DNA of 32,372 nucleotides from an uncultured Acidobacteriia bacterium (GTDB lineage Bacteria > Acidobacteriota > Terriglobia > Bryobacterales > Bryobacteraceae), in assembly GCA_903892565.1 (NCBI GenBank), contig CAITIX010000384.1, forward strand, positions 1 to 32,372, read 5' to 3'. The notes beneath the pieces are model-generated. The model ran no database searches, was not told the DNA's origin, and saw only the letters and a list, made by a program, of their open reading frames with translations. Shown here one piece after another: positions 9,247 to 29,335 of the stretch; position 1 is the stretch's first letter; every line of letters starts with the position of its first letter. The position numbers and the translations under genes were made by a program.

Positions 9247-9963
9247 ATGGTTGCATTTCGTGCTGTACAGACAATCGACCAATGCGACTCGTGCCGGTCG
9301 GCGCCTGGAGGAATCCTTGGCGCTCTCTCTCCGACCGCGCTGCACGCTTTTGAGGCGGCAAAATACACCTGCTCCTATCCGCGCGGCGCAATGTTGTTAT
9401 TGGAGGGGCAAGATTCCAGCGGAGTCTATCTGCTGTGCAAGGGCCGCGTAAAGCTGACGATGACCGGATCTGATGCCAAGTCTATCATTGTTCATATTGC
9501 CGAACCGGGCGAACTCATTGGGTTGGATTCCGCCATCTCCGGTAAGCCGCTGAGCATGTCCGCCGAAACGTTCGATCCCTGCGTAGTCCATTTCGTCAGG
9601 CGAGAATCGCTGCGCGCTCTGATGCGCGATTATCATGATGTCTGCCTCGCGATTTCAGAGCAACTCAGTAATGATTATCGTTCGGCGTGCCTTAATATCC
9701 GCTCGCTCGGATTGTCGCGCACCGCGTCTGAGCGCGTGATTCATTTCCTGCTGGAATGGGCGGCGAAGGGCCGTCAGACAGAGGAAGGATTGCGCGTCAG
9801 CATCCCGCTCACACACGAAGAGATCGCCCAAGTCGTGGGCGTATCGCGAGAGACCGTGACCAGGGCGCTCGCGGAACTGAAGCATAAAGCGCTGATCACC
9901 ATCAAAGGATCGTCGGTGCTGATTCGCGATCGTTGCGCTTTGGAAGCTTTAGCCGTGGCCTAG
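9247..9963 (+). CDS. Crp/Fnr-family transcription regulator
   Basis: A 238-residue regulator. The start at 9247 is chosen over ATG 9235 because GGGAGGA (9237-9243) then serves as ribosome site. Residues about 25-125 form the cyclic-nucleotide-binding-type sensor and about 155-220 the winged helix. The recognition helix reads S-R-E-T-V-T-R (200-206): R201, E202 and R206 match CRP R180, E181 and R185, which read GTGA; FNR has V-E-x-x-S-R. The sensor loop GELIGLDSAISGKPLS lacks the CRP arginine that holds cAMP and looks more like FNR. Cysteines C13, C16 and C112 fall where FNR has C20, C23 and C122, but the fourth ligand (FNR C29) is missing. GTGA-N6-TCAC pairs lie just downstream and at two other promoters. 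The family is certain; ligand and effect are unknown. Confidence 0.92.
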   Translation: MVAFRAVQTIDQCDSCRSAPGGILGALSPTALHAFEAAKYTCSYPRGAMLLLEGQDSSGVYLLCKGRVKLTMTGSDAKSIIVHIAEPGELIGLDSAISGKPLSMSAETFDPCVVHFVRRESLRALMRDYHDVCLAISEQLSNDYRSACLNIRSLGLSRTASERVIHFLLEWAAKGRQTEEGLRVSIPLTHEEIAQVVGVSRETVTRALAELKHKALITIKGSSVLIRDRCALEALAVA

Positions 9964-9997: not shown

Positions 9998-10033
9998 GTG
10001 ACGACAGTCACGATGGTGTGTGACTGCCGTCAC
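9998..10033. promoter_or_regulatory. Tandem Crp-type operator before the amidohydrolase unit
   Basis: Two perfect 14-bp palindromes of the form GTGA-N6-TCAC: GTGACGACAGTCAC (9998-10011) and GTGACTGCCGTCAC (10020-10033), offset by 22 bp, two helical turns. They sit between the regulator gene and the start at 10097. A -10-like TTGAAT at 10057-10062 would place the second site near -41; AATAAT at 10037-10042 is an alternative -10 that would put the site inside the promoter. Confidence 0.75.
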
Positions 10034-10096
10034 CTAAATAATTCATCCGCTGCGTGTTGAATCGCGCACAATGTACAGAAGTCTGAACTGGAGCCC

Positions 10097-10918
10097 ATGG
10101 TGGATCGACCAATATTACGCGTCCTTGTTTTCTCAAGTTGTCTTCTCGCAACGTCGATGTCGCTTTCCGCCCAATGGGTGGACTACCCGACTCCCGGGAT
10201 TCCCCGAACTACCGACGGCAAGCCCAACCTCGCGGCGCCCGCGCCGAAGATGGCCGACGGCAAGCCCGATCTCTCGGGCATTTGGGAGGTCGGCCGAACG
10301 GATAAACTCAGGCCCGCTGTCTTCGATATCAGCACGCGAGTTCCAGGAGGCATGCCACTGCGACCCGAATATGCGGAGATCGTGAAACAACGCGCGCCTT
10401 TTGACAGTCCTCTGCGCGCCACCGAGCCGAAGGCGAATTGTCTCCCTCTCGGCTTGGTGTTGGACCTCTACGACGGTTTGAACAAGTTCGTGCAAACCCC
10501 CGGCTTGCTCATCGTGATGAAGGAATACAACAAAGGCTACCGGCAGATTTTCCTCGACGGCCGCCCTTTTCCTGAAGATCCGGATCCCGCCTGGGATGGA
10601 TATTCCGTCGGGCACTGGGACGGCGACACGCTAGTTGTCGAAACCATCGGATTGAACGGTAAGAGCTGGCTCGATATCCACGGCCATCCCATCACGGATG
10701 CCGCGAAAGTGACCGAACGCTACCATCGCAAGGATTTCGGCCACATGACCATGACGATCACGGTGGACGATCCCAAAGCGTACACCAAACCATGGACGCT
10801 CACTTTAGAAAAAGTCCTGAAAACGGACACCGAACTTCTCGACTACATCTGCGCCGAAAACGAAAAAGACGTCAAGCACATCAAAGGCGCGAACGACGCG
10901 GGGAAGAATGCCAAATGA
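10097..10918 (+). CDS. Secreted DLSGIW-family protein of unknown function
   Basis: A 273-residue exported protein with a signal peptide ending near residue 25 (S-L-S-A). After a Pro-rich stretch comes PDLSGIWE (about 57-64), the mark of a large, poorly known family common in Acidobacteriota. The conserved core includes RQIFLDGRPFPEDPDPAWDGYS-type sequence, then GHWDGDTLVVETIG and a beta-rich end with KPWT. The pattern suggests a beta-barrel-like or lipocalin-type domain, with no known catalytic triad. GGAG at 10090-10093 precedes the ATG closely. It follows a double Crp-type operator and overlaps the amidohydrolase start by 4 bases (ATGA), so both are one unit. Three relatives lie at 18196, 18962 and 21737. 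No biochemical role is known to me. Confidence 0.8.
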   Translation: MVDRPILRVLVFSSCLLATSMSLSAQWVDYPTPGIPRTTDGKPNLAAPAPKMADGKPDLSGIWEVGRTDKLRPAVFDISTRVPGGMPLRPEYAEIVKQRAPFDSPLRATEPKANCLPLGLVLDLYDGLNKFVQTPGLLIVMKEYNKGYRQIFLDGRPFPEDPDPAWDGYSVGHWDGDTLVVETIGLNGKSWLDIHGHPITDAAKVTERYHRKDFGHMTMTITVDDPKAYTKPWTLTLEKVLKTDTELLDYICAENEKDVKHIKGANDAGKNAK

Positions 10919-12528
10919 GGCGGATCCTGCATCTCGGACTCTTGGGTGCGCTGTGCTGCTTGGCGCTCCTGGGACAGGAAGCCCCACCGGATGCGATTTT
11001 CTACAACGGCAAGATCCTGACCGTTGACTCCGGTTTTACGGTGCAGCAAGCGTTTGCCGTCAAGGGCGACCAATACGTCGCGGTTGGCGATAACGCCAGC
11101 ATCCGCAAACGAGCGGGCAAGAACACTCGCCTCGTGGATCTCAAAGGCACCGAAGTCATTCCCGGACTCTCCGACAATCACGATCATCTCTATCTCACAG
11201 AGAAAGTCATGCGCGGCATCGATCTCGTCGGAGCCACCAGCACCGACGAGGTCGTGAAGCGCCTGCGGGAGGGGCTGGCGAAAGCCAAGCCGGGCGAGAC
11301 GGTTTTTGGTGGTGTCGGCTGGCGGGCGCCATTGACGAGGAAAGATCTCGATTCTATCTCCGCCGATGTCCCGATCGTCGCACTCCGCAATCGCCGCGGA
11401 TCGGCTGTGTTCAATTCAGCCGCCCTGGCTAAGGCCGGCATCACGAAAGACGCCCAAACTTACATGGGCGAAAAGATTCCGAAAGACAAGAGCGGAGAAC
11501 TGTCTGGCGAGCTTCCGGATTGGCCCGCGGGCGTTTACGCCGTCGACAAAGTGGTTCCTGTGCCGAATGCGGAAGGCGAAGAGAAAATGATCCTGCACGG
11601 CCAGCAGGAACGCAACGCGCTCGGTATTACCAGCATTCGCGATCTCGGTAATTTCCCCGAAGGTATGCGCGCGTTTGTCCGCATGTGGCGTGAAGGAAAG
11701 CTGACGTTGCGCGTCAGTATGGGCATGGATCTTCCAGATCGGGCCGATCCTGCCAGTTGGGCGCGCCAGCAGGGCGTTACGCCGTGGTTTGGCGATCACT
11801 GGCTGCGCGTCGATTCGGTTGGCGAAGAGCCTTGGGAGATCCCTCAGCCGAAGTTCATGGCGCTGTTCTCCGAGCTGCTTCAGCTAGGCTGGCGCCACGC
11901 CACGCACGTCCCGAACAACGAAGTACTGGGCCGTGTTCTCGATACCTACGAAGCCATCGACAAGGAAACTCCTCTGCGGGACAAGCGCCTCGTCGTAGAA
12001 CACATCCCGACGGTCACTGCGCCGCTGATGGATCGTCTCGCGAAACTCGGCATTATTGTTTCAACGAACATTGCGGGCTACCAGAACTTCGATCTCGTCG
12101 CTAAGCGATCGAGCGAAGCTGAGGCCGCGCGCCAGACTCCTGTGCGCGAACTCCTCGATCATCGCCTGGTAGTGGTTTCGGGCTTCGATTACAACGGACC
12201 CAATCCGGAAACCATGGCTCCGAACAATCCCTTCATTTATCTGTATTTCTACGTGTCGCGCAAGACCAGCGATGGCAGAATGATCGCTCCGCAGGAAAAG
12301 ATCACGCGCCAGGAAGCGCTGCGCATCGCCACCAACAACAACGCTTTTGCGACGTGGGACGAGAAGGTGAAGGGCTCGATTGAGCCCGGCAAGCTCGCCG
12401 ATTTTGTGGTTCTTTCAGGGGATTTCATGACCGTTCCAGAGGATGACATCCTGAAGTTGCATCCTCTGGCGACCTATGTTGGCGGCCGCAAAAGTTATAC
12501 AGTGCCGAATCAGAAAGACGTGTTCTGA
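10915..12528 (+). CDS. Secreted YtcJ-like amidohydrolase
   Basis: A 537-residue amidohydrolase of the Amidohydro_3 (YtcJ) group. The start at 10915 overlaps the previous stop (ATGA) and gives a clear signal peptide (about residues 1-21). The family opening IFYNGKILTVD is followed by the metal-binding H-x-H in DNHDH (H89, H91). Later come HATHVPN and VEHIPT (further metal histidines), GFDYNG near the usual catalytic Asp position, and the closing G-S-I-E-P-G-K-L-A-D-F-V-V-L. Such enzymes hydrolyse amide or cyclic imide/urea-type bonds using one or two zinc ions; relatives are mostly cytoplasmic, so the signal peptide is notable. It sits in the putative Crp-type regulon, which suggests a role in breaking down an imported or outside compound. 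The substrate cannot be predicted. Confidence 0.88.
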   Translation: MRRILHLGLLGALCCLALLGQEAPPDAIFYNGKILTVDSGFTVQQAFAVKGDQYVAVGDNASIRKRAGKNTRLVDLKGTEVIPGLSDNHDHLYLTEKVMRGIDLVGATSTDEVVKRLREGLAKAKPGETVFGGVGWRAPLTRKDLDSISADVPIVALRNRRGSAVFNSAALAKAGITKDAQTYMGEKIPKDKSGELSGELPDWPAGVYAVDKVVPVPNAEGEEKMILHGQQERNALGITSIRDLGNFPEGMRAFVRMWREGKLTLRVSMGMDLPDRADPASWARQQGVTPWFGDHWLRVDSVGEEPWEIPQPKFMALFSELLQLGWRHATHVPNNEVLGRVLDTYEAIDKETPLRDKRLVVEHIPTVTAPLMDRLAKLGIIVSTNIAGYQNFDLVAKRSSEAEAARQTPVRELLDHRLVVVSGFDYNGPNPETMAPNNPFIYLYFYVSRKTSDGRMIAPQEKITRQEALRIATNNNAFATWDEKVKGSIEPGKLADFVVLSGDFMTVPEDDILKLHPLATYVGGRKSYTVPNQKDVF

Positions 12529-12552
12529 CTCCGTCGGTAAACGGCGGGAGTC
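12527..12552 (+). terminator. Possible terminator after the amidohydrolase
   Basis: An imperfect hairpin overlaps the stop codon: GACTCC pairs with GGAGTC (12547-12552) and the stem continues past a one-base bulge. It is followed by a moderately T-rich stretch, not a clean T-run, so strength is doubtful. Confidence 0.35.
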
Positions 12553-12571
12553 TTAGTAATTTCTTAAATTC

Positions 12572-12607
12572 GTGATGCCGGTCACTCTGACCAGTGACTC
12601 CAGTCAC
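12572..12607. promoter_or_regulatory. Tandem Crp-type operator before the TonB receptor unit
   Basis: GTGATGCCGGTCAC (12572-12585) and GTGACTCCAGTCAC (12594-12607) are both perfect GTGA-N6-TCAC palindromes, offset by 22 bp. TACACT at 12630-12635 can be the -10 box, which puts the centre of the second site about 41.5 bases before the likely transcription start, the classic class II activation position of CRP. The leader would be about 20 bases. Confidence 0.8.
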
Positions 12608-12660
12608 CGCAGGATCTTGAGCATCGTCTTACACTAGCTCACTAGGCAAGGGGGCCATTC

Positions 12661-15600
12661 ATGTTGCAGTTTCGGATCACCCAGAAAGTCGTCCGCTTTT
12701 TTATCGCATTCTTGTGGGTTGCGTTCTCGTGCCCGAGTGTCGGCACGCTTTTTGCACAAACCAGCACTGGCAGAATCTTGGGGGCCATTACCGATCTGTC
12801 GGGAGGTGCAGTCTCCGGCGCTGCCGTCACCATTACGGACACCGAACGAGGCGCCACGCGCAGGCTCACTACGGACGCCGCCGGTTCTTATAACGCGCCG
12901 AGTCTCACGCCAGGAACTTACTTGGTCAGAGTGGAAGCGCAAGGTTTCCGAACTACCGAACGCAGCGGCGTAACGCTCGAAGTGAATGCGCAATTGCAGA
13001 TTGACTTGATTCTCCAGCCGGGAGACCAAAAGCAGACGATTACAATTACCGCGGAAGCTCCTCTCATCGAAACCACGAACGCGACGCTCGGCGGGACCAT
13101 CGAAAACAAGGTGATCAACGATCTTCCGCTCAATGGCCGCAACTTCGCGAACCTCCTCGATCTCCGTCCAGGCATCACCAAACTGCCCGGTGGCTCCAAC
13201 AACAACCAGAGCGCGAACGGCGGACGTCCCCACAGCGAACTGTTCCTCATCGATGGTGTGTATAGCAACGACCCGTGGAACGCCAAGAGCGTTATGAACG
13301 CCACCATGGCCGCCGGCGACGCCGGGACCATCCTGCCCATCGAAGCTATCGAAGAATTCAAGACGCAAGTCAATCCGCAGGCCGAATTCGGCTGGAAGAA
13401 CGGCTCGGTGACGGTCGTGGGCTTGAAGTCCGGCACGAACAGCTATCACGGCTCGGCCTATGCCTATGGACGCAGTGGCGACTGGGGCGCTAAGAACTTC
13501 TTTGCGACTTCGCAGCCGCTCCCGGACCTGGGCATCGAGCAGTATGGCGCCAGCCTCGGCGCTCCCATTATCAAGGACAAACTGTTCTATTTCGCGAACT
13601 ATGAATCGCAGTTGTATAGCGTCCAGACTCCGTCGCAGCACACCGTGCCTCTCGTAACGGCCGGTGTCGGTAGCGCTTCGAACAATTTGATTGCCGCTTG
13701 CAACGCCGCTGTGGCCTCGGGAACCTTCGCTCCCGTGAGCGCGCAACTTGCTGGATTGAGTTCAAATTGTACGCCGCTGGGGAATTACCCAGGACTCTTC
13801 CCCAATAACACGGGCGCCACGACATTATTCAATACAGCTCTCACCAGCAACAATACGATCTATTCGGGCGTTGGCAAGGTGGATTATCGCCTCAACGACA
13901 AGAACTCCCTGAGCGGCACCTACTTCCTCAGCCAGGGCGACGGACTTTTCGTCGACAACCCCGGTCTGGAAGTTGATCCGAATCGCCGTTTGCTGCAAAC
14001 CGCTCGAGCTCAGCTCGGTTCGGGATTGTGGACGTGGACGCCGTCGTCGCAGTGGGTCAACGCCGCCCATGTCGGTTATTCCCGCTACACGCAGACGTTC
14101 TTCTCGGCCGATCATAGTCAGGACCCGGGCAACTACTACGGCACCTATCATCTGTACACCGGCCAGACCGATCCGGTGGCGTTCGGTTTCCCGCTCATCA
14201 CCATCAATCCGTTCAACGCCAGTTTGTCGGGCGCCGGGTTCCCGAATCTCCAGGGGCCTGACAGCGTTCTCTATATCTCCGACAACGTCTCTTATCAGCG
14301 TGGTCGGCATTCGTTTATGTTCGGCGGACAGTTCCAAGACAATACGGCTTCCAACTATTCGGCGGGCCAAGCCAAAGGCAACCTGACCTTCGGAAGCCTC
14401 ACCGGCTTTTTCCAGGGAACCATGACGCGCGCCCGCACCACCGCTGGCGACCTCTACCGCAATTTCAAGAATCAAGGATATGCGGGATTCGCGCAGGATG
14501 AATGGCATATCCGCCAGAACGTAACCCTGAACCTGGGCGTTCGTTACGAAGTCAACACGGTCCTGTCCGAGTCGAACAATCTTCTTGGCAACTTCATTCC
14601 TGGCGTCGGCATGCAGCAGGTGGGCAAACAGATCAGTGCGCCGTTCAATGGCGACCACAACAACTTTGCTCCGCGCATCGGCATCGCTTGGTCCGTTAAC
14701 AGTAAGACTGTGGTGCGCGCCGGCGGCGGCATCTCCTACGATAACGGAGCCATCGACTCCTTCATGTCCTTCGCCAATCAGTTCGGATTGGGCACTCTCC
14801 CGACCAACGTTCCGCTCTATGCCAATGGAAGCCAGACGCCTACTCTTGTTTCAGGTGGCCTGATCAACGCGGCGAACTTCACGTTTAGCGGAGCGTCGGT
14901 CAATGGCGTAAATGCCAACTGGCGAGCGAACGGGCCGAACACTCCTCTATTCGCCACCGCGCCCGCCTGCGGCGACGGCAACACTAAAATCAACGCGACC
15001 GGCGTTACACCCGCGCAGTGCAGCATCCTCGGGGTCGATCAGAACCTCCGAACTCCGTACGTCACCAGCTGGCTGGTGGACGTCCAACGCTCCCTCGGCA
15101 ATAGCCTCTCGCTGGATGTTGCCTACATCGGTAACCATGGTACGAAGCTGCTCGGTGTCACCGATCTCAATCAAGCCGCATTCGGATCTGGCTGGACGCC
15201 CTCGGTTCTCGCCACCTGCATTGCGACGCCGACCGCCGGGAACTGCTCTCCAAATAGTGGCGCGGAACAAACGTCCCGCCCCTACAACACGGCGTTCCCG
15301 TATCTGAAATACATTAACTATCTCTCCAATAGCAATTACTCCAACTACAGCGGCCTGCAAACGGTGTTGACGCAGCGCAACTGGCATGGCCTTTCCTATG
15401 TGGCCGGCTACACGTGGTCCCATGCGCTGGGTGTTTCCTCCGATAGCTGGCACTTCATCCTGCCGATCGACAGCAACAACGTGAAAGGTTCGTACGGGAA
15501 CACATTGTTCGATATTCGTCATCGCTTCACGTACTCGTTGTCTTACGCGCTGCCCGGCAAGAAATCGCCCGGTCAGCTGTTAGAGGGCTGGTCCGTCAAC

Positions 15601-16233
15601 GCGATCCTCCACCTGCAGGGCGGTACGCCATGGGGCATCAACGACGTTACGACGGATTTCAGCGGAACCGGCGAATTCGGGAACTCCTCGCAGACGACCG
15701 GCGAGCGCTGGAATCTCTATGGCAGTCCATCGGACTTCCAGTTCAACAAGTCCTTCATCAACAGCAACGGAATCCCCTACTTCTCGGGAACGACGAATCC
15801 GGCATGTCTTTCCAGGGCGCAGGCCAACGGTCCGGCGGCGGTTGCTGCTCTCACCGTGTTGGGATGTTATGCGCAAGGCAGTTCGGTGCTGATTCCTCCC
15901 GGCTACGGCACGTACGGGACGCTGGGCACGAATCCTTTCCGCTCGGCTGGGTATCAGAACGTCGACTTCTCCGTATCCAAGACCTGGACCCTCAGGGAGC
16001 GTTTCCGGGCTCAGTTCCGCGCAGAGGTTTTCAACGTTTTCAATCACGCGAACTTCGCGTCGCCCAACGGCATCGCGAACATCAATCAGAACGGCACTGC
16101 GACGGATCCCTCGGGAGCCGGCGGCGTCGGCTTCGGTATCAGCCGTCAAACGCCCGACGTGGCGGCTGGAAATCCGGTGCTCGGTTCCGGCGGACCACGC
16201 GCCATTCAGCTCGGTTTGAAGATCCTGTTCTAG
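12661..16233 (+). CDS. TonB-dependent receptor with carboxypeptidase-like regulatory domain
   Basis: A 1190-residue outer-membrane protein. The signal peptide ends near residue 33 (G-T-L-F-A-Q). Residues about 35-115 form the Ig-like carboxypeptidase regulatory domain (GAITDLSGGAVSGAAV to the ...YLVRVEAQGFR repeat). A plug region follows (about 120-240, with DLPLNGRNFANLLDLRPG), then a long barrel ending in ...LGLKILF with the C-terminal phenylalanine used by the BAM complex. This architecture (Oar-like/SusC-like) is expanded in Acidobacteriota and takes up large or scarce substrates using TonB energy. It opens a five-gene unit (gaps 12, 4, -4 and 7 bases) and stands behind a tandem Crp-type operator. 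No SusD-like partner is present. The substrate is unknown. Confidence 0.93.
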   Translation: MLQFRITQKVVRFFIAFLWVAFSCPSVGTLFAQTSTGRILGAITDLSGGAVSGAAVTITDTERGATRRLTTDAAGSYNAPSLTPGTYLVRVEAQGFRTTERSGVTLEVNAQLQIDLILQPGDQKQTITITAEAPLIETTNATLGGTIENKVINDLPLNGRNFANLLDLRPGITKLPGGSNNNQSANGGRPHSELFLIDGVYSNDPWNAKSVMNATMAAGDAGTILPIEAIEEFKTQVNPQAEFGWKNGSVTVVGLKSGTNSYHGSAYAYGRSGDWGAKNFFATSQPLPDLGIEQYGASLGAPIIKDKLFYFANYESQLYSVQTPSQHTVPLVTAGVGSASNNLIAACNAAVASGTFAPVSAQLAGLSSNCTPLGNYPGLFPNNTGATTLFNTALTSNNTIYSGVGKVDYRLNDKNSLSGTYFLSQGDGLFVDNPGLEVDPNRRLLQTARAQLGSGLWTWTPSSQWVNAAHVGYSRYTQTFFSADHSQDPGNYYGTYHLYTGQTDPVAFGFPLITINPFNASLSGAGFPNLQGPDSVLYISDNVSYQRGRHSFMFGGQFQDNTASNYSAGQAKGNLTFGSLTGFFQGTMTRARTTAGDLYRNFKNQGYAGFAQDEWHIRQNVTLNLGVRYEVNTVLSESNNLLGNFIPGVGMQQVGKQISAPFNGDHNNFAPRIGIAWSVNSKTVVRAGGGISYDNGAIDSFMSFANQFGLGTLPTNVPLYANGSQTPTLVSGGLINAANFTFSGASVNGVNANWRANGPNTPLFATAPACGDGNTKINATGVTPAQCSILGVDQNLRTPYVTSWLVDVQRSLGNSLSLDVAYIGNHGTKLLGVTDLNQAAFGSGWTPSVLATCIATPTAGNCSPNSGAEQTSRPYNTAFPYLKYINYLSNSNYSNYSGLQTVLTQRNWHGLSYVAGYTWSHALGVSSDSWHFILPIDSNNVKGSYGNTLFDIRHRFTYSLSYALPGKKSPGQLLEGWSVNAILHLQGGTPWGINDVTTDFSGTGEFGNSSQTTGERWNLYGSPSDFQFNKSFINSNGIPYFSGTTNPACLSRAQANGPAAVAALTVLGCYAQGSSVLIPPGYGTYGTLGTNPFRSAGYQNVDFSVSKTWTLRERFRAQFRAEVFNVFNHANFASPNGIANINQNGTATDPSGAGGVGFGISRQTPDVAAGNPVLGSGGPRAIQLGLKILF

Positions 16234-16245
16234 GAGACGACTTCG

Positions 16246-17163
16246 ATGCGCCACCAACGAATCACTCTACGCAGCGCTGGGGTCGTCATGGCCCTGGCGC
16301 TCGGCGCGTCGCTTGCGCACTCACAGCAAAAGTTGAACTTATTGGAAAATCCGGTTACCGCCGGATTACCCTCTGCCGAGCAAGTTCTGGCCAAGTACGA
16401 AAAGTTCCTGGGCGGCAAGGAGGCCTTGGCGAAAGTGAAGGAGCGTACCGTTTGGACGCGCCGCATCGCCACCACCGGTGCTCCGGATGAAACCGTTCTG
16501 CTGCACTATTCGAAAACGCCGAACTTTTCGATCATGAACCACACCAATCTCGACGCATCGTTTAATCACTGGCAGAACGGTTGTGATGGCGCAGGCGGCT
16601 GGCAACGCGCCGGCGGGCCCGACAAGATTAAGGATTCCGGTCCGAACGCGTCCGCCGGTCCCATGTGCCACCAGGAGCTCTACTACTACGGCTACCTAGC
16701 GCTCGATCTGGCATCGATGAAGCAGGCTTACAAAAGTATCGAAGTGAAATCCGAGCTGAGCTACGTGCAGCCCGAAGTCAGCGTTTACGGAGCGCTCGCC
16801 GGAGGCAAAGGCAAAGATCTCGTCCCCGGCGGCGTCCGCGATGTCTATCTCGTGCTCGCCATCGCCGCGCGCGAAGGCGACGAAGGCTCCTGGTTTATCT
16901 TCGACAAGGAAACGGGCGCGCTGCTGCGTCGTCAAAGTGACGATGGCGAAACGCCCGGCCCTCCCGCGGCGAACGCAAAGTTCACAAGCTTCCTGCAATA
17001 TCGTGAAGTCGGGGATGGCACTGTCGCGCCCTACCAATGGGTCTCGCAGAACAAGAACGCGATCATTCGCGGCGTAGCGACGGAAATTATCGACAACGCT
17101 CCCTTGGATGATAAGATTTTTATCCGCCCGAAGAATGCACTCCGCGAAGACAAAGGACTCTAA
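16246..17163 (+). CDS. Exported LolA-like-fold protein
   Basis: A 305-residue protein with signal peptide (about 1-26, ending L-A-H-S-Q-Q) and AGGAG at 16232-16236 before the ATG. From about residue 45 it begins A-E-Q-V-L-A-K-Y-E-K-F-L-G-G-K-E-A-L-A-K, the helix typical of the 'outer membrane lipoprotein-sorting' (LolA/LppX-like) fold, and continues with antiparallel strands. A related domain forms the C-terminal half of the cytochrome at 20433 (LDQYVQAAGGAAKLAAVKS). Such half-barrel folds carry lipids or hydrophobic ligands in the periplasm. It lies 12 bases after the TonB receptor, so it may receive or carry the receptor's cargo. The fold is inferred from pattern, not alignment; the function is not known. 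Confidence 0.65.
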   Translation: MRHQRITLRSAGVVMALALGASLAHSQQKLNLLENPVTAGLPSAEQVLAKYEKFLGGKEALAKVKERTVWTRRIATTGAPDETVLLHYSKTPNFSIMNHTNLDASFNHWQNGCDGAGGWQRAGGPDKIKDSGPNASAGPMCHQELYYYGYLALDLASMKQAYKSIEVKSELSYVQPEVSVYGALAGGKGKDLVPGGVRDVYLVLAIAAREGDEGSWFIFDKETGALLRRQSDDGETPGPPAANAKFTSFLQYREVGDGTVAPYQWVSQNKNAIIRGVATEIIDNAPLDDKIFIRPKNALREDKGL

Positions 17164-17167
17164 CGCC

Positions 17168-18199
17168 ATGGCGCTAAAGCTTCCACAGTTTGCGATCGCG
17201 GCGGGAGCAGTCGTTGGACTCCTCACCATCGGACTTTGCGGCCTGGTCACCGCTGCGCGCGCGCAGCAGGGCGCTCCGATTGAAGACGTCGAGACCATTC
17301 AGCTCCGTCCGAATTTCTACATGATTGCCGGTGGTGGTTCGAACATCGCTGTACAAATAGGAGTCGACGGAGTGGTTCTGGTGGATGCCGGAGCCGAAGC
17401 CGCCTCCGATCGCGTCATCGCCGCAGTGAAGCGCATCACCGATCAACCCATCCGCTACATCATTGACACGAACGCGGATGCCGATCATGTGAGTGGCAAC
17501 GCGAAAGTGGCGAAGGCCGGCCGCAATATCCAATTCGCGGGATCTGAACCTTTGGGTGGCGATCTTGCGCGCGACATGACCAATGGATTCGCCGCCACGG
17601 TACTTGCTTCGGAAGGGGTTCTCTCTCGCATGAGCGCACCCACGGGTAAAACGGCGGCGTATCCCAGCACCTCCTGGCCGCAGGAGACTTTCTACCAGGA
17701 TCGTCGCTACATATACATGAATGGCGAGGGCGTGGAGATGTTTCGCATGCCCGCCGCGCACAGTGATGCGGACATTGCCGTCTTCTTCCGCGCTTCCGAC
17801 GTGATCGCCGCCGGCGATGTTCTCGACATGACGCGCTTCCCCATGATCGATCCCGCAAATGGCGGCAGCATTCAGGGCGAGATCGACGCGCTCAATCGCA
17901 TCATCAAGATGACGGTCACGCCGATTCCTTTTATTTACGCCGGCAGCGTTGGCACATATGTGATCCCTGGCCATGGTCGCGCGTGCGAACAGCTGGACGT
18001 CGTCGAATATCGCGACATGGTCGTTACGATTCGGGACATCGTAAAAGATCTGATCAACAGCGGAAAGACGCTCGAACAGGTGAAGGCCGCGAATCCGGCC
18101 GGCCCTTGGGCTCCGCGTTTCGGGGCGAAGACTGGTCCCTGGACCACGGACGCATTTATCGAGGCGATCTACAAAAGCCTCAAGGGGGCCACAAAATGA
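17168..18199 (+). CDS. Exported MBL-fold protein with altered metal site
   Basis: A 343-residue protein with an export signal (about 1-32). The start at 17168 lies 4 bases after the previous stop; the in-frame ATG at 17108 would extend into the upstream gene. The metallo-beta-lactamase fold is plain (GVDGVVLVDAG strand, later AAGDVLD and IPGHGR). The first metal motif, normally T-H-x-H-x-D-H, reads T-N-A-D-A-D-H (101-107): the two site-1 histidines are Asn102 and Asp104. Retained are D106, H107, H198, D217 and H269, enough for the second metal site. It may bind one metal or a different one, or act on an unusual substrate. It overlaps the next gene by 4 bases. The fold call is firm; the reaction is unknown. 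Confidence 0.85.
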   Translation: MALKLPQFAIAAGAVVGLLTIGLCGLVTAARAQQGAPIEDVETIQLRPNFYMIAGGGSNIAVQIGVDGVVLVDAGAEAASDRVIAAVKRITDQPIRYIIDTNADADHVSGNAKVAKAGRNIQFAGSEPLGGDLARDMTNGFAATVLASEGVLSRMSAPTGKTAAYPSTSWPQETFYQDRRYIYMNGEGVEMFRMPAAHSDADIAVFFRASDVIAAGDVLDMTRFPMIDPANGGSIQGEIDALNRIIKMTVTPIPFIYAGSVGTYVIPGHGRACEQLDVVEYRDMVVTIRDIVKDLINSGKTLEQVKAANPAGPWAPRFGAKTGPWTTDAFIEAIYKSLKGATK

Positions 18200-18954
18200 G
18201 ACTTCGATCTCTGCATCTCTTGGCCGCCGTCTGCCTCGTCGTTCTCGCGCCTGCGGCCTTTGCGCAAGGCGGACGCGGCGGCGCGGCCCCGGCCACAGCG
18301 AAGTCCACCGCACCCATGGATCTCACCGGATACTGGGTTTCCATCGTCACGCAGAACTGGCGCCTCCGCATGGTAGTTCCGCCCAAAGGCGATTACATGG
18401 GCATCCCTCTCAACGCCGAAGCGAAGAAACTCGCCGACGCCTGGGATCCCGCCAAGGAAGACGCAGCCGGCAACGCCTGCAAAGGATACGGGGCGGGATT
18501 GATCATGGCGAATCCCGAACGGCTGCACATTACTTGGCCCGACGACAGCACGCTACAGATGGACGTGGACGCTGGTACGCAAACGCGCGCGTTCCACTTC
18601 GGCAAGTACACTCCCGCGGACAGCAAACCCTCTTGGCAAGGCGATTCCGTCGCGTCATGGGAATCTCGCGAGCGCGACGTCCGCCGTGATCCCAAGGCGC
18701 GCTATCTCAAGGTCACTACGAATCACCTTCTGCCGGGATTCCTGCGTAAAAACGGAGTGCCCTACAGCGAAAATGCGACCGTCACAGAGTTCTACGACTT
18801 CTTCCAGGAACCGACCGGCGAGCAGTGGATGATCGCGACCTCGACGATTACCGATCCCAAGTACCTGGATCGCCCGCTGCTCCTCACGGGTCAATTCCGC
18901 AAGCAAAAAGACGCTACTGGCTGGGATCCCCAGCCGTGCTCGGCAAAATGGTGA
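18196..18954 (+). CDS. Secreted DLSGIW-like protein
   Basis: A 252-residue exported protein. The start at 18196 overlaps the MBL gene stop (ATGA). The signal peptide ends near residue 23 (A-A-F-A-Q), followed by a Gly/Ala-rich linker. MDLTGYWVS (about 41-49) corresponds to the DLSGIW opening of its relatives. A conserved end follows: ...REGDV-type strand, KVTTNHLLPGFLRKNG, ENATVTEFYDFF and a final ITDPKYLDRP strand. The order of elements matches the proteins at 10097, 18962 and 21737, though identity is low. There is one conserved Cys near the middle (C95) and one near the end. No catalytic motif is seen and I know no function. Its place in the receptor operon suggests a periplasmic or surface role with that transport system. 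Confidence 0.7.
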   Translation: MRLRSLHLLAAVCLVVLAPAAFAQGGRGGAAPATAKSTAPMDLTGYWVSIVTQNWRLRMVVPPKGDYMGIPLNAEAKKLADAWDPAKEDAAGNACKGYGAGLIMANPERLHITWPDDSTLQMDVDAGTQTRAFHFGKYTPADSKPSWQGDSVASWESRERDVRRDPKARYLKVTTNHLLPGFLRKNGVPYSENATVTEFYDFFQEPTGEQWMIATSTITDPKYLDRPLLLTGQFRKQKDATGWDPQPCSAKW

Positions 18955-18961
18955 CGGAACT

Positions 18962-19873
18962 ATGAGACTCTTTCCAAGACACGCGGCTATCGTTGCTTTG
19001 CTTCTCGGAAGCACTCCGCTGTTCGCGCAGATCGACATCTCGGGCTCCTGGCTGCCTTATAACGATAGCGATCCTCTCAGTAATAATCCTGGACCGCGCG
19101 TTTATCCGCTCGATTTTCTGGGAATCCCATTCAACGATCTCGGACGCCAGCGCGGTTACCTCTATCAGGGCGAACAGGGCTCGATGCCCGAACGCATCTG
19201 CGCCTTCTACACACCGGTATATATCAATATCGGACCCTTTGGCCTAAAGATCTGGAATGAGACGGAGCCGCGCAACGGTACGACCCTCGCCTGGCACATC
19301 AATGGCTGGGAGGATCGCGCACCCACCACCATTTGGATGGACGGCCGGCCTCATCCTTCGAAATACGCTCCGCATCCCAACGGCGGCTTCGCCACGGGCA
19401 CGTGGGCGGACGACGTCCTCGTGATTTACACCACGCACATGAAAGCTGGACAGCTTCGCAAAAGCGGCGCACCCGCGAGCGACGACTCCACGATGGTCAC
19501 GCGTCTATTCCGCCACGGGGATCAGCTCACCATGACTTCGCGCATCGACGATCCATACTATCTCGCCGAGCCCTACTATCTGACCCGCACCTTCAAGCTG
19601 GACCCCGTCGCGTCTATCCGCGCCGTTGGGCCTCCCTGCATCCAGGGTGACGAGGGAGTGCCTGATGAAAAAGTCCCGCACTATCTTCCCGGCAAGAACG
19701 CGGCCGTAGGCGAATTTCAAAAGTTGTACAACATTCCGGCAGAGGCCAGCATGGGAGGTCCCGAAACCATGTACCCCGAGTTCCGGAAGAAGTTGAAGGA
19801 TAACTACCAGATTCCGGAAAAGTGTCCGCGTAACTGCGGTGGACCGGGCGAATACCCGCTACGCGGTCAGTAG
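18962..19873 (+). CDS. Secreted DLSGIW-like protein
   Basis: A 303-residue exported protein, last gene of the receptor unit, 7 bases after the previous stop. The signal peptide ends at about residue 22 (T-P-L-F-A-Q). IDISGSWLP (24-32) is the family opening. Then come RICAFYTP, IWMDGRPHPS (the dGRP-type strand shared with 10097 and 21737), GTWADDVLVIYTTHM, and SRIDDPYYLAEPYYLTRTF. It has a longer C-terminal tail (about 230-303) with three cysteines near the end (C-P-R-N-C and one earlier), which could form a disulfide. No ribosome site of strength is seen, so translation may be coupled. The family assignment is by shared motifs only. Confidence 0.7.
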   Translation: MRLFPRHAAIVALLLGSTPLFAQIDISGSWLPYNDSDPLSNNPGPRVYPLDFLGIPFNDLGRQRGYLYQGEQGSMPERICAFYTPVYINIGPFGLKIWNETEPRNGTTLAWHINGWEDRAPTTIWMDGRPHPSKYAPHPNGGFATGTWADDVLVIYTTHMKAGQLRKSGAPASDDSTMVTRLFRHGDQLTMTSRIDDPYYLAEPYYLTRTFKLDPVASIRAVGPPCIQGDEGVPDEKVPHYLPGKNAAVGEFQKLYNIPAEASMGGPETMYPEFRKKLKDNYQIPEKCPRNCGGPGEYPLRGQ

Positions 19874-19925
19874 GGTCCCAGCAAGGGCAAAGACGCGTGC
19901 AAGCTTGTGATTTACTGAAGATCCC

Positions 19926-19961
19926 GTGTGTCGCGTCACGGCAACGCGTGATGCTCGTCAC
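19926..19961. promoter_or_regulatory. Tandem Crp-type operator before the DUF6152-cytochrome unit
   Basis: GTGTGTCGCGTCAC (19926-19939, one mismatch to GTGA-N6-TCAC) and GTGATGCTCGTCAC (19948-19961, perfect), again offset by 22 bp. GATACT at 19985-19990 can serve as -10 box, 24 bases after the second site, a similar geometry to the other two pairs. The upstream site is the weaker one here. Confidence 0.7.
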
Positions 19962-20022
19962 AGAAAATGTGCCCCACCCGGGCGGATACTAAGTCTGGGC
20001 CAAGCGCCCTTCTAGGAGTCAT

Positions 20023-20409
20023 ATGAAAAAACTTGCCCTCTTCCTGATGTCCCTGGCCGCCATCGTGACGCCCGCTCTTGCGCATCATTCGGCGGCTGCC
20101 GAGTACGACATCAAGAGTACCGTCACGCTGAAGGGAACGATCACTAACATTGAATGGCTCAACCCTCACGCCCGCTTCTACGTGGACGTCAAGGACACCG
20201 ACGGGAAAGTGATCAACTGGGAGATTGAAACCGGCAGTCCGAATCAGTTGCTGCGCGGCGGTTGGACGCGGAATACGTTGAAGATCGGCGACGTCATTAC
20301 CGTCGAGGCCTATCGCGCCAAAGACGGAGCGAATCTTGCGGATGCGGTCAGCGTCACCACGGCGGAAGGTCGCAAACTGATTGGCGGAACGAGCACCGGC
20401 GAAAAATAG
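20023..20409 (+). CDS. DUF6152 exported protein with mature N-terminal His-His
   Basis: A 128-residue protein with AGGAG at 20014-20018 before ATG 20023. The signal peptide ends A-L-A at residue 20 and the mature chain is predicted to start H21-H22-S, the mark of DUF6152. Then come a strand-rich domain with LKGTITNIEWLNPHARFYVD (36-55; H49 conserved), WEIETGSPNQLLRGGW, and a final OB-like part (LKIGDVITVEAYRAKDG). The family has no known function. A free N-terminal histidine plus a second His recalls copper 'histidine brace' sites such as those of CopC and LPMOs, but that is only inference. It is the first gene after a tandem Crp-type operator and lies 23 bases before the cytochrome gene, so the two are likely made together. 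Confidence 0.85.
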   Translation: MKKLALFLMSLAAIVTPALAHHSAAAEYDIKSTVTLKGTITNIEWLNPHARFYVDVKDTDGKVINWEIETGSPNQLLRGGWTRNTLKIGDVITVEAYRAKDGANLADAVSVTTAEGRKLIGGTSTGEK

Positions 20410-20432
20410 ATCAAGCCAGTCGAGGAAATATC

Positions 20433-21596
20433 ATGATCCCCCAAAAGCCACGGGCCGTGGTGCGTCTGGCCTCAGCCGGAACGATCGTTTTGGCATTCAC
20501 ATTAATTCAGCCGGCTTTCGCGCAAGCTCCCAGCATGCCGCCGCCTGCCAAAGGTCAGACCGCCGGGCAGTATTTCAAGAACGTCACGACGGCCTCGCTC
20601 AAGGGACTCACGCCTAGTGATTTTTTGGGAGCCATGGGTGTCATGACGGCCGCTGTCGGCTACGATTGCAGTAATTGTCATCCCGGCGCCGGAACAGACG
20701 CTATCGATTGGGTCACCGACAGTAATCCCAAAAAAGTGACCGCACGGAAGATGGTAGACGTGGTCGCGGCAGTCAACAAGAACTTTTTTGGCGGTGCACA
20801 GGTCGTTACCTGCTGGACATGCCATCGCGGCCAGGATGCCCCGCCTACGAGTATCGCCCTCGATAAGCTCTACGGAGAACCAAACGAGGAAAGGCGCGAC
20901 ATTCTAGCACCGGATCCGAACGAGCCCGCCGCGACGCAAATCTTGGATCAGTACGTGCAAGCGGCGGGAGGCGCGGCGAAACTCGCTGCTGTCAAAAGTT
21001 ACGTCGCCACCGGGACCAGCCGGGGCTACGCAGGCATGGGTGGAACCGCGGCATTTGAGCTTTATGCGCAGGCACCCGACTCGCGCGGCATGTGGATCCA
21101 CTTCCCGCAATTTCCGGAACGCGGAGTCAGCGCCTGGACGTATGACGGCAAGACGGGCTGGATTGTCCAGCCGCGTGCGATTGTTCCGGTTTACGAACTC
21201 ACCGGCAATGACGTGATCGGCGCGAAACTCGACGCCCTGGTTTCCTTCCCTGCCGGCATCAAGACCGCCTTCACCAATTGGCGGGTTGTGCAGGAAGATA
21301 CCATCAACGGGCGCGAAATGTATGTTGTGCAGGGAATCGGTCAGGGAGCGGGCGTTGTCGCAACCTTCTACTTTGACAAACAGACTCACCTGCTCACGCG
21401 CTTTGTGCGGCGCACGCCGTCCCCTGTCGGCCGCATCTCCATCCAGCAGGACTTCGACAACTACAAGGATGTGGACGGCATCAAGCTCCCGTTCAAGTAT
21501 TCGTTCCTTTGGCTCGACGGACGCTTTACGGCGGAGATCACGGACGTGAAGATCAACGTACCGGTGGACGCGGCGAAGTTCACTCGTCCTCGGTAG
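20433..21596 (+). CDS. Reaction-centre-type cytochrome c fused to a LolA-like domain
   Basis: A 387-residue protein. GAGGAAA precedes ATG 20433; an earlier in-frame ATG at 20262 lies inside the previous gene and is rejected. The signal peptide ends near residue 30 (A-F-A-Q). Residues about 35-150 match the photosynthetic reaction-centre cytochrome c subunit family, with two haem sites C79-S-N-C-H83 and C127-W-T-C-H131 instead of the usual four. Residues about 165-387 form a LolA-like, strand-rich domain (LDQYVQAAGGAAKLAAVKS, then VSAWTYDGKTGWI). Photosynthetic bacteria use the cytochrome as electron donor to the reaction centre; here no photosynthesis genes are present, and such proteins are frequent in non-phototrophic Acidobacteriota, where the job is unknown. 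It is probably a periplasmic redox protein with a ligand-binding half. Confidence 0.85.
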   Translation: MIPQKPRAVVRLASAGTIVLAFTLIQPAFAQAPSMPPPAKGQTAGQYFKNVTTASLKGLTPSDFLGAMGVMTAAVGYDCSNCHPGAGTDAIDWVTDSNPKKVTARKMVDVVAAVNKNFFGGAQVVTCWTCHRGQDAPPTSIALDKLYGEPNEERRDILAPDPNEPAATQILDQYVQAAGGAAKLAAVKSYVATGTSRGYAGMGGTAAFELYAQAPDSRGMWIHFPQFPERGVSAWTYDGKTGWIVQPRAIVPVYELTGNDVIGAKLDALVSFPAGIKTAFTNWRVVQEDTINGREMYVVQGIGQGAGVVATFYFDKQTHLLTRFVRRTPSPVGRISIQQDFDNYKDVDGIKLPFKYSFLWLDGRFTAEITDVKINVPVDAAKFTRPR

Positions 21597-27540: not shown

Positions 27541-28196
27541 GAATTGCCTTCCTCCTCAATCCGTTCTTTGTGTAAACGAATCAAGCACCCGCTGCAGAAA
27601 AGATTGCTGCATCAGATTCTTCGAAAGCGCATTTAGGGGGGGATTTCGACTGGAACGGCGTGACGTACAAGGGCACGCACCAAGCGCTGGTGGACCGGGA
27701 GACATGGGAGCAAGTGCAACCGTTGCTCAATCGTCGCGCCGAAACAAATCAGCACCGGATCAAACACGATTTTGCATTCACCGGCTTTGTCCGTTGCGGT
27801 CATTGCCAGTGTTGCCTCGTTGGAGAGCTGAAGAAGCAGAAGTATGTCTACTACCACTGCACAGGCCACCGCGGGAAGTGCCCTGAGCCTAGAGAACTTC
27901 AGTCACAAAGTCTGGAACTGTTGCGTCGGGTGAATGAGATCCGTGCCAGCGCGCCAATGCCAAAGGTGGAGGCGATAGATCTGATGGGTTTGACCAGCAG
28001 GGCCGCTGAACTCGTTGCAGTACAGCCCGTCTAGGAAAAACAGAGATTTTTGAGGCCGGTATTGAAAACCGCAATCTGGCAGGGCGGCCAGTTGCACACC
28101 GATTTCGAAGAGCCGTTTGAAAATCTGAAGCGCTCGAACCAGCTAAGTAGAACGAAACACGAGGAGAACGCAATCGCGACCGATCAAAATGAAATT
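27541..28196 (+). pseudogene. Decayed serine site-specific recombinase (C-terminal part)
   Basis: Large serine recombinases have a resolvase domain, a Recombinase domain, a zinc ribbon and a coiled C-terminal part. Only the last parts remain. Bases 27541-27632 read ...KRIKHPLQKRLLHQILRKRI, the end of the Recombinase domain. The frame then shifts near 27634 and continues DFDWNGVTYKGTHQALVDR (27642-27698). The zinc ribbon follows: C-G-H-C (27796-27807) and the Y-Y-H-C-T-G-H-R-G-K-C part. The coiled region is mostly deleted. A TAG at 28032-28034 interrupts the frame, after which it reads on: EKQRF, VLKTAIWQGGQLHTDFEEPF, the usual family end. Three defects and no catalytic domain: it is dead. Its end lies against tRNA-Gln, suggesting an old integrated element at this tRNA. 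Confidence 0.8.
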
Positions 28197-28371: not shown

Positions 28372-28827
28372 TCACCACTCCGAATACATCGTGCCTTCCA
28401 GGCTTTTCTTGTCCGATCCGCTGCGCACGTCGTACACTCCCGGAGCCGTTTGATCGACCGAAGAGACGGCCTCTTCCATAATCACGCGCCAACTTTGGTT
28501 ATTGCCCGTCATCGGATCGAGCGGAACATCGCGCAAATAGCCCTGGTCCACCAGATCCCGCAGCGTTTGCGGTGCTTTCTGTTTGTCGAACGTGTATTCG
28601 TCGATCACCGTTCGCAGGGTGAAAAGATTGTTCTTCAGTAAGCTCTCTTTCGTTCGCGTAATCGATTTCTGATACATCGGTACCGCGATGGCCACCAGTA
28701 CGGAGATGATCGTCATGACGATGATCAATTCGATCAGCGTATAGCCCTTACTCTGCTTGAACGCGCGCGAGGTCGCGCCGGGCTGTGAGCCTTGGTCCGT
28801 CGTCGCAGGATGGATTGTCATCGTCAT
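28372..28827 (-). CDS. GspG-like major pseudopilin (second copy)
   Basis: A 151-residue prepilin. The start at 28827 lies one base after the previous stop (TGA-G-ATG); a second ATG two codons on is possible. After a long leader of about 30 residues comes the prepilin peptidase site K-G/Y-T-L-I-E (mature residue 1 is Tyr, not the usual Phe), then the hydrophobic helix IELIIVMTIISVLVAIAVP. The globular part has the GspG pattern DPMTG and W-R-V-I near the C-terminus, and the protein ends ...LEGTMYSEW. Pseudopilins build the short periplasmic fibre of a type II secretion machine. It is encoded behind a related pseudopilin (28829-29323) and the secretin, all in one minus-strand unit. The two copies share the same ending (GTxYSEW). 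Confidence 0.85.
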   Translation of the reverse strand: MTMTIHPATTDQGSQPGATSRAFKQSKGYTLIELIIVMTIISVLVAIAVPMYQKSITRTKESLLKNNLFTLRTVIDEYTFDKQKAPQTLRDLVDQGYLRDVPLDPMTGNNQSWRVIMEEAVSSVDQTAPGVYDVRSGSDKKSLEGTMYSEW

Positions 28828-28828
28828 C

Positions 28829-29323
28829 TCACCATTCCGAGTACAGCGTGCCGTCGCGAGCGCGTTCGGCGCTCTTGGTGTAAATATCGAACACATTCTG
28901 ACGGCCCCAACTTTGCGACGCCGGATCGTCCTGTTCACTCCGCATGCCCCAGTCCCTGGAATTGGTCATCGGATCCAGCGGAATCCGCCGCAGGAACTTA
29001 ATCTTTTTCCCATCGGCGCTCTGCAGGAGCTTCACGCCCTGCACGAGTTGATCGAGAGATTCCGGATAGCCGTCCGTGCCCAGTTTCACTTCAATTTTCC
29101 CAGCCAGCGATGCATCCTTGTAATCGTCAATCGCTTTGCGGATTTCGCGCAGCGAGCCCAGTAGCACGCGTTCCCGATCGCGCCGCACTTTGTAGCGGGC
29201 CAAGGGAACGGCCATGGTCGTCAGTAGTGCCATGATCGTAAACGCCACGATCAACTCCACGAGCGTGAGCCCGCGCTCACCCTTCTTGCGTCTGACTTGT
29301 TCCGACCGAACCACCGAAGCCAT
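28829..29323 (-). CDS. GspG-like pseudopilin (first copy)
   Basis: A 164-residue prepilin with a short basic leader (RRKKGERG), cleavage site G/L-T-L-V-E and the N-terminal helix TLVELIVAFTIMALLTTMAVP, where E5 of the mature form is present. The globular domain contains the GspG marks: YPESLDQLVQG, LRRIPLDPMTN and WGMRSEQDD, and ends RDGTLYSEW. Mature residue 1 is Leu rather than Phe. It starts 12 bases after the secretin stop and ends one base before the next pseudopilin, so translation is likely coupled. Two adjacent GspG relatives with the same end may form a mixed fibre or be used at different positions in it. The pseudopilin call is firm; major versus minor role is not. Confidence 0.85.
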   Translation of the reverse strand: MASVVRSEQVRRKKGERGLTLVELIVAFTIMALLTTMAVPLARYKVRRDRERVLLGSLREIRKAIDDYKDASLAGKIEVKLGTDGYPESLDQLVQGVKLLQSADGKKIKFLRRIPLDPMTNSRDWGMRSEQDDPASQSWGRQNVFDIYTKSAERARDGTLYSEW

Positions 29324-29335
29324 AGTTTTCGCGAT

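Follow-up and report, generated by a model that had tools for sequence, protein, structure and literature searches.

Twin GTGA-N6-TCAC sites with a fixed 22-bp step and their association with a CRP/FNR-family regulator in an uncultured Acidobacteriia bacterium

The closest described systems are promoters and operators of the CRP/FNR regulator family. In Escherichia coli, class II promoters carry a CRP site centred at -41.5, and class III promoters of the deoC type have two CRP sites, for which the account of promoter classes in PMC5957442 gives protection near -40 and -90 and a CytR site between the two. In Desulfovibrio, the CRP/FNR-family protein HcpR has the consensus wTGTGAnnnnnnTCACAw, according to the section on this regulator in PMC1274295. 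We have analysed a stretch of 32,372 nucleotides from an uncultured Acidobacteriia bacterium (Bryobacteraceae; contig CAITIX010000384.1 of assembly GCA_903892565.1), which is called the window throughout. It holds three pairs of GTGA-N6-TCAC sites, each with a step of 22 base pairs (bp), and a gene for a CRP/FNR-family regulator at 9247..9963 on the plus strand. From the sequence comparisons given below, we consider it likely that two dimers of this regulator family activate class II promoters from such a pair as one composite operator.

On the one hand, the window promoters would resemble the class II promoters of E. coli in the CRP-like recognition helix of the regulator, in the GTGA and TCAC half-sites and in the distance of the proximal site from the -10 element, with the class positions being those outlined in PMC5957442. 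On the other hand, they appear to add a second dimer site fixed 22 bp upstream, and the regulator family seems to lack the residues of the cyclic AMP (cAMP) pocket. With the deoC type they share the arrangement of two dimers upstream of one promoter; the CRP sites described for that type in PMC5957442, however, are about 50 bp apart with the CytR site between them, whereas the window sites are 22 bp apart and nearly abut. The single-site consensus of HcpR is almost identical to the window motif, but no fixed tandem layout is seen in the part of PMC1274295 that describes it, and the window genes include neither hcp nor frdX, the main targets of HcpR in that account. The oxygen sensors FNR and FnrL offer a further comparison: most rows of the family alignment have a CxxC-x8-C motif near the N-terminus and some an extra cysteine near residue 110, and genes for universal stress proteins (Usp), multihaem cytochromes and haem-type radical SAM proteins stand beside pairs in other families. 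The window protein differs from these sensors in lacking the third N-terminal cysteine and in scoring far below the cut-off of the FNR model, and its half-site is GTGA rather than the TTGAT of FNR. Among the matches listed from the open-licence literature, there was neither a tandem 22-bp CRP/FNR operator nor such a regulator in Acidobacteria. The fixed twin-dimer layout, as a putative general rule tied to one regulator clade, is new here and apparently undescribed.

The three pairs, to which no strand is assigned, lie at 9998/10020 (P1, 9998..10033), 12572/12594 (P2, 12572..12607) and 19926/19948 (P3, 19926..19961), with an offset of 22 bp in all three. Both 14-mers of P1 and P2 match GTGA-N6-TCAC exactly and the distal 14-mer of P3, at 19926, has one mismatch, giving five exact 14-mers out of six. 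Reading the plus strand onwards from the last base of each pair, a -10-like hexamer begins after 24 bases at P1 (TTGAAT, 10057..10062), 23 at P2 (TACACT, 12630..12635) and 24 at P3 (GATACT, 19985..19990); that of P2 fits TANNNT, and those of P1 and P3 do not. The start codons at 10097, 12661 and 20023 follow their pairs after 63, 53 and 61 bases, respectively. An earlier note on this DNA had described the pairs with their constant step, the hexamers and the placement ahead of transcription unit starts, and all of this was reproduced.

Single sites are unremarkable in number, and the pairs are what stands out: with at most one mismatch, the window has 18 single sites against 12.1 expected. A seventh exact GTGA-N6-TCAC, unpaired, occurs at 17426-17439 within a gene of the metallo-beta-lactamase fold, probably by chance. 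The whole genome (G000; 4.63 Mb in 454 contigs, the window being contig C384) contains 22-bp pairs in the numbers 2 (exact), 2 (one mismatch), 3 (two) and 14 (three), whereas a motif of reversed pattern gives 6 in total with up to three mismatches. Thirty first-order Markov genomes, simulated with the dinucleotide make-up of the window as a proxy for the genome, gave means of 0, 0, 1.07 and 15.4 for the same classes. Of the four pairs with at most one mismatch, three are those of the window, within 10 kb of the regulator gene, and the fourth lies on another contig (C68:24336), 145 bases ahead of an Amidohydro_2 gene (PF04909), with TACATT at 23 bases. All four are intergenic and precede a gene start, which supports the reading of the pairs as promoter elements in the earlier note. 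When gaps of 0-30 bp were permitted, the sole exact pairs of the genome were the two in the window, both at offset 22, with none for the control. When a weight matrix was built on 43 promoters from other genomes, the three pairs in the window scored 24 to 38 whichever strand was used, against 3.7 for the next-best place.

The distribution of the pairs was then compared with that of the regulator in 399 genomes of the class, taken to be Terriglobia (Acidobacteriota), of which 177 hold a homologue at E <=1e-45 and are termed regulator-positive, leaving 222 others. Exact pairs with gaps of 0-30 bp were counted along with the reversed-pattern control; the genomes are related, so P values are nominal. 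There were 307 exact pairs in 129 genomes against 5 for the control, and a pair was present in 106 of the 177 regulator-positive genomes and in 23 of the 222 others. Among the pairs listed for regulator-positive genomes, 106 of 143 are at offset 22 (59/68 and 47/75 in two listings), compared with 8 of 27 pairs in the 23 regulator-negative genomes. Those eight come from four genomes of 57-80% completeness (G352, G256, G248 and G244) and from G091, for which the figure is 95%. G248 has a partial regulator homologue on the contig of its two pairs, and G352 and G256 have no regulator match even at 1e-15. In the remaining 18 regulator-negative genomes, none of 19 pairs is at offset 22. In a phylum sample, 396 genomes were scanned with gaps of 2-14 bp, and 22-bp pairs were found in eight genomes from outside the class; six of these hold the regulator (E below 1e-80) on the same contig, 0.6 to 18 kb from the pair. 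Pairs at offset 17 with similar AT-rich letters were observed in three genomes of one genus (G471, G459 and G494; f31, g184).

Linkage and conservation at the level of individual genes point in the same direction. When 106 pairs were set against 89 regulators, 23 pairs had a regulator gene no more than 300 bp away, with 13 lying upstream of that gene and 10 downstream as in the window. Two relatives carry counterparts of the window genes: in G211 the regulator (70%), receptor (68%), amidohydrolase (77%) and p273 (57%), and in G044 the regulator (70%), the DUF6152 protein (75%) and p263 (83%). In G211, the p273 and Amidohydro_2 genes are divergent with one exact pair between them, and this Amidohydro_2 shares 71% identity with the one that follows the C68 site; a second exact pair precedes the receptor counterpart. 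In G044 an exact pair precedes the DUF6152 counterpart. Each of the four G000 target genes thus has a counterpart behind one of these three exact pairs in the two relatives, and the pairs keep GTGA and TCAC exact although the N6 and N8 letters have changed. The tie that the earlier note drew between the pairs and the regulator at 9247-9963 is strengthened by these comparisons, in which the family, the pair and the 22-bp offset co-occur, often close together.

For the promoter architecture, we collected 109 distinct pairs with their flanks (217) from 50 genomes. A called gene start is found on at least one side, at any distance, for 101 of the 109. TANNNT starts 23 bases past the pair in 33 of 217 flanks, 24 bases in 10 and 25 bases in 4, with a mean of 1.03 per offset elsewhere; this makes 47 matches at 23-25 bases where about 3 are expected, and at 23 bases alone 33 against about 1 (Poisson P about 1e-37, nominal). 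The side that bears TANNNT at 23-25 bases has a called gene start in 38 of 45 cases. If transcription starts seven bases after the -10 element, a -10 element at 23 bases would centre the proximal dimer near -41.5 and the distal dimer near -63.5. The class II position near -41.5 that had been assigned to the second site would agree with the consistent -10 placement, with the start position being presumed. Where TANNNT stands at 23 bases (33 promoters), G two bases past the proximal site (24 promoters) and C three bases past it (23 promoters) are preferred; in the window, P2 has both letters, P3 the G and P1 neither. This asymmetric G-then-C preference is possibly the trace of a -35 element or a contact. 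In a test with sites not chosen on pairs, albeit in 10 genomes that were, GTGA-N6-TCAC followed by TANNNT at N22 occurred 71 times, compared with 5 for the reversed control and 11 for a spacing of N17. Such class-II-like single sites are numerous in G167 (15 matches) and G368 (23).

The regulator itself belongs to the CRP/FNR superfamily by its Pfam scores for a cNMP-type sensor domain (cNMP_binding, PF00027, 55.9 bits) and a Crp helix-turn-helix (HTH_Crp_2, PF13545, 71.7 bits). Its recognition helix reads GVSRETVTR, with R201, E202 and R206 invariant in 10 aligned homologues. In CRP, R185 contacts DNA, as do R180 and E181, the two residues that the account given in PMC1274295 associates with positions G3 and A6 in each half-site. 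Under this G3/A6 rule, the R and E of SRETVTR would fit the GTGA half-site. The AlphaFold model has a mean pLDDT (predicted local distance difference test score) of 81.6, with residues 1-14 below 50, and its best structural matches are M. tuberculosis CRP and C. glutamicum GlxR, with an A. fischeri FNR chain at a template modelling (TM) score of 0.81. Compared with M. tuberculosis CRP, the family profile has GLS and PYEL where the Glu of GEL and the Arg of PRTS stand, residues which we take to serve in the cAMP pocket. An identity as cAMP-dependent CRP was rejected on this apparent replacement of the pocket residues.

Considering the cysteines, those of the window regulator include C13, C16 and C110, and the third N-terminal one is absent; the regulators of G000, G044 and G211 all have this pattern. 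Across the 63 distinct rows of the family, three N-terminal cysteines are present in 57, one near residue 110 in 27 and all four in 23. The G098 regulator has C13 and C110 only, yet an exact pair adjoins its gene. Because these four genomes carry pairs, the full cysteine motif is evidently not required for the operator layout. The FNR model gave 35 bits against a cut-off of 228, and when the N-terminal 55-residue piece was compared with solved structures in order to place its cysteines against those of FNR, no useful match resulted. For the window protein, FNR proper, with four cysteine ligands and an oxygen-labile iron-sulphur cluster, was rejected on the missing cysteine, and the lead was kept for the wider family. 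By its predicted residues, the window regulator would thus recognise DNA in a CRP-like manner, whereas the residues of the cAMP pocket and one cysteine usual in the family are missing from it. The conserved cysteines, together with the targets that pairs have in other families, lead us to infer a redox- or oxygen-related ancestral signal for the regulator family; since one of the three usual N-terminal cysteines is absent, the present signal of the window regulator may differ. In a maximum-likelihood tree of 56 rows, the G000, G044 and G211 regulators are joined with support of 100/100 and fall in a 14-row group in which 8 rows belong to f6; the exact neighbour has weak support (92/64) and a long-branch warning. 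Transfer of the regulator gene into the family of the window is possible.

In the mechanism that we propose, each pair would act as one composite operator on which two regulator dimers sit side by side. The downstream dimer would be centred near -41.5, in the class II position beside the -35 region and sigma, and the upstream dimer would lie two helical turns further up, near -63.5, on roughly the same face of the DNA and within reach of the alpha C-terminal domain of the polymerase. In this way the regulator would activate four units, namely the p273-amidohydrolase unit, the outer-membrane receptor unit, the DUF6152-cytochrome unit and the Amidohydro_2 unit on C68. Binding, activation and contact between the two dimers are inferred from sequence.

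Several observations weigh against this mechanism. No exact pair at a gap of 0-30 bp is found in 71 of the 177 regulator-positive genomes, and 28 of 75 pairs listed for a set made up mainly of f11 genomes stand at offsets other than 22. Outside the class, two of the eight genomes with a 22-bp pair are without the regulator (G519, none at 1e-30; G600, a match of only 6e-32), while among the 11 genomes whose pairs have other offsets, the regulator is present at 1e-45 in three (G535, G458 and G658, in the last on the contig of the pair), so that the contrast between the two groups reaches a Fisher P of 0.07. The two pairs of G600 closely resemble those of G220, and a stray contig in G600 is possible. 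As for the promoters, 66 of the 109 pairs, P1 and P3 of the window included, have no TANNNT at 23-25 bases on either side, and 27 lie inside a called open reading frame (ORF), which is due in part to a crude ORF caller for which GTGA gives false start codons. In G167 and G368, a partner at 22 bp was found for one of six inspected TANNNT-bearing sites, against 12 of 24 in the other eight genomes. These single sites suggest that the regulator family, or CRP/FNR paralogues, may also use sites without a partner, and they speak against an obligate pair of dimers.

Other explanations of the pairs differ in how well they fit these data. Recent duplication of one DNA segment, or chance, might be suggested by the three pairs lying inside 10 kb, but their N6, N8 and flanking letters are unlike, the counterpart promoters differ except at GTGA and TCAC, and the simulation gives none; chance and recent duplication were rejected on these grounds, and their probability is negligible. 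A different CRP/FNR paralogue could bind the pairs, with the neighbouring regulator being unrelated, considering that the regulator query gave two matches in G000 and that paralogues can recognise similar half-sites. Yet the own-family genomes with a homologue at E <=1e-45 are G000, G044 and G211, in each of which exact 22-bp pairs share a contig with the regulator, whereas eight regulator-negative genomes of the same family with a pair have nine pairs, none at 22, which makes the paralogue very unlikely. It is somewhat less improbable, though still unlikely, that the pairs are repressor operators that block polymerase. A site over the -35 region could also repress; the position of repressor sites usually varies, however, and one constant spacing from the -10 element, as found over many promoters at the class II activator position, is expected of activators. 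Moreover, the -35 region displays only the nGC preference.

A more serious possibility, although not one that we favour, is that two dimers bind independently, as an ordinary class II site with a class I-like helper, the 22-bp step being set by the reach of the alpha C-terminal domain and not by dimer contact. One full CRP-type site itself spans roughly 22 bp, and the fixed -10 distance ties both sites through polymerase. Also, -63.5 is near the class I position of -61.5 listed in PMC5957442. Reach alone, on the other hand, should permit nearby spacings and further turns, whereas 13 of 30 inspected sites with TANNNT at N22 had a partner (<=2 mismatches) exactly 22 bp upstream and one had it elsewhere between offsets 14 and 49, at 32; offsets 21 and 23 are likewise rare among pairs listed (2/75 and 4/75). 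Returning to the composite operator, a stronger version may be put forward tentatively, as an idea with a little under an even chance of being right: the regulator family could work as an obligate dimer pair, rigidly phased at 22 bp in a 36-bp operator, with the dimers touching each other and polymerase to give an unusually steep switch. In the lineage of the window, a regulator of anaerobic type whose cysteine motif has degraded would then have been redirected to an uptake-and-amidohydrolase island, with the promoter grammar kept.

The genes behind the three window pairs are all on the plus strand. P1 is followed by the p273 gene (10097..10918; 273 amino acids), which has no match among Pfam models, and by an amidohydrolase gene (Amidohydro_3, 10915..12528) that overlaps its end and likely forms one unit with it. 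P2 precedes a gene for an outer-membrane receptor of TonB-dependent type (CarboxypepD_reg and OMP_b-brl_4, 12661..16233), the start of a likely unit reaching 19873. Behind P3 come a DUF6152 protein gene (20023..20409) and, likely in one unit with it, a gene for a cytochrome-c-type protein (CytoC_RC match, 20412..21596). The targets in this lineage are thus outer-membrane receptor, amidohydrolase, DUF6152 and cytochrome-like genes. In other genomes, a set of 104 proteins whose genes adjoin pairs includes 10 Usp, 10 CRP-type regulators, nine radical SAM proteins that strongly match models of haem synthesis or related ones, seven multihaem cytochromes of the c7 type, three OsmC and three Amidohydro_2 proteins. 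Because Usp, multihaem cytochrome and radical SAM genes adjoin the pairs, a low-oxygen or redox response is suggested in those families. Elsewhere in the window, a short ORF at 27660-28034 (+) has a recombinase zinc beta ribbon domain (PF13408), possibly what is left of a serine recombinase close to where the gene island ends, and 28372-31444 (-) holds a secretin with TPR repeats and two ORFs with an N-terminal methylation motif (PF07963), a cluster of type II secretion or pilus type.

In summary, the comparisons lead to a candidate promoter rule that consists of GTGAY-N4-RTCAC, 8 bases, a second GTGAY-N4-RTCAC and TANNNT 23 bases past the pair; directly behind the proximal site, nGC is preferred. 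To our knowledge, gene regulation in this bacterial group has been little studied. The rule would permit candidate regulons to be read from genomes alone, and in several families it indicates sets of targets of a low-oxygen or redox kind. It may also provide a natural system for asking whether neighbouring CRP-type dimers cooperate.

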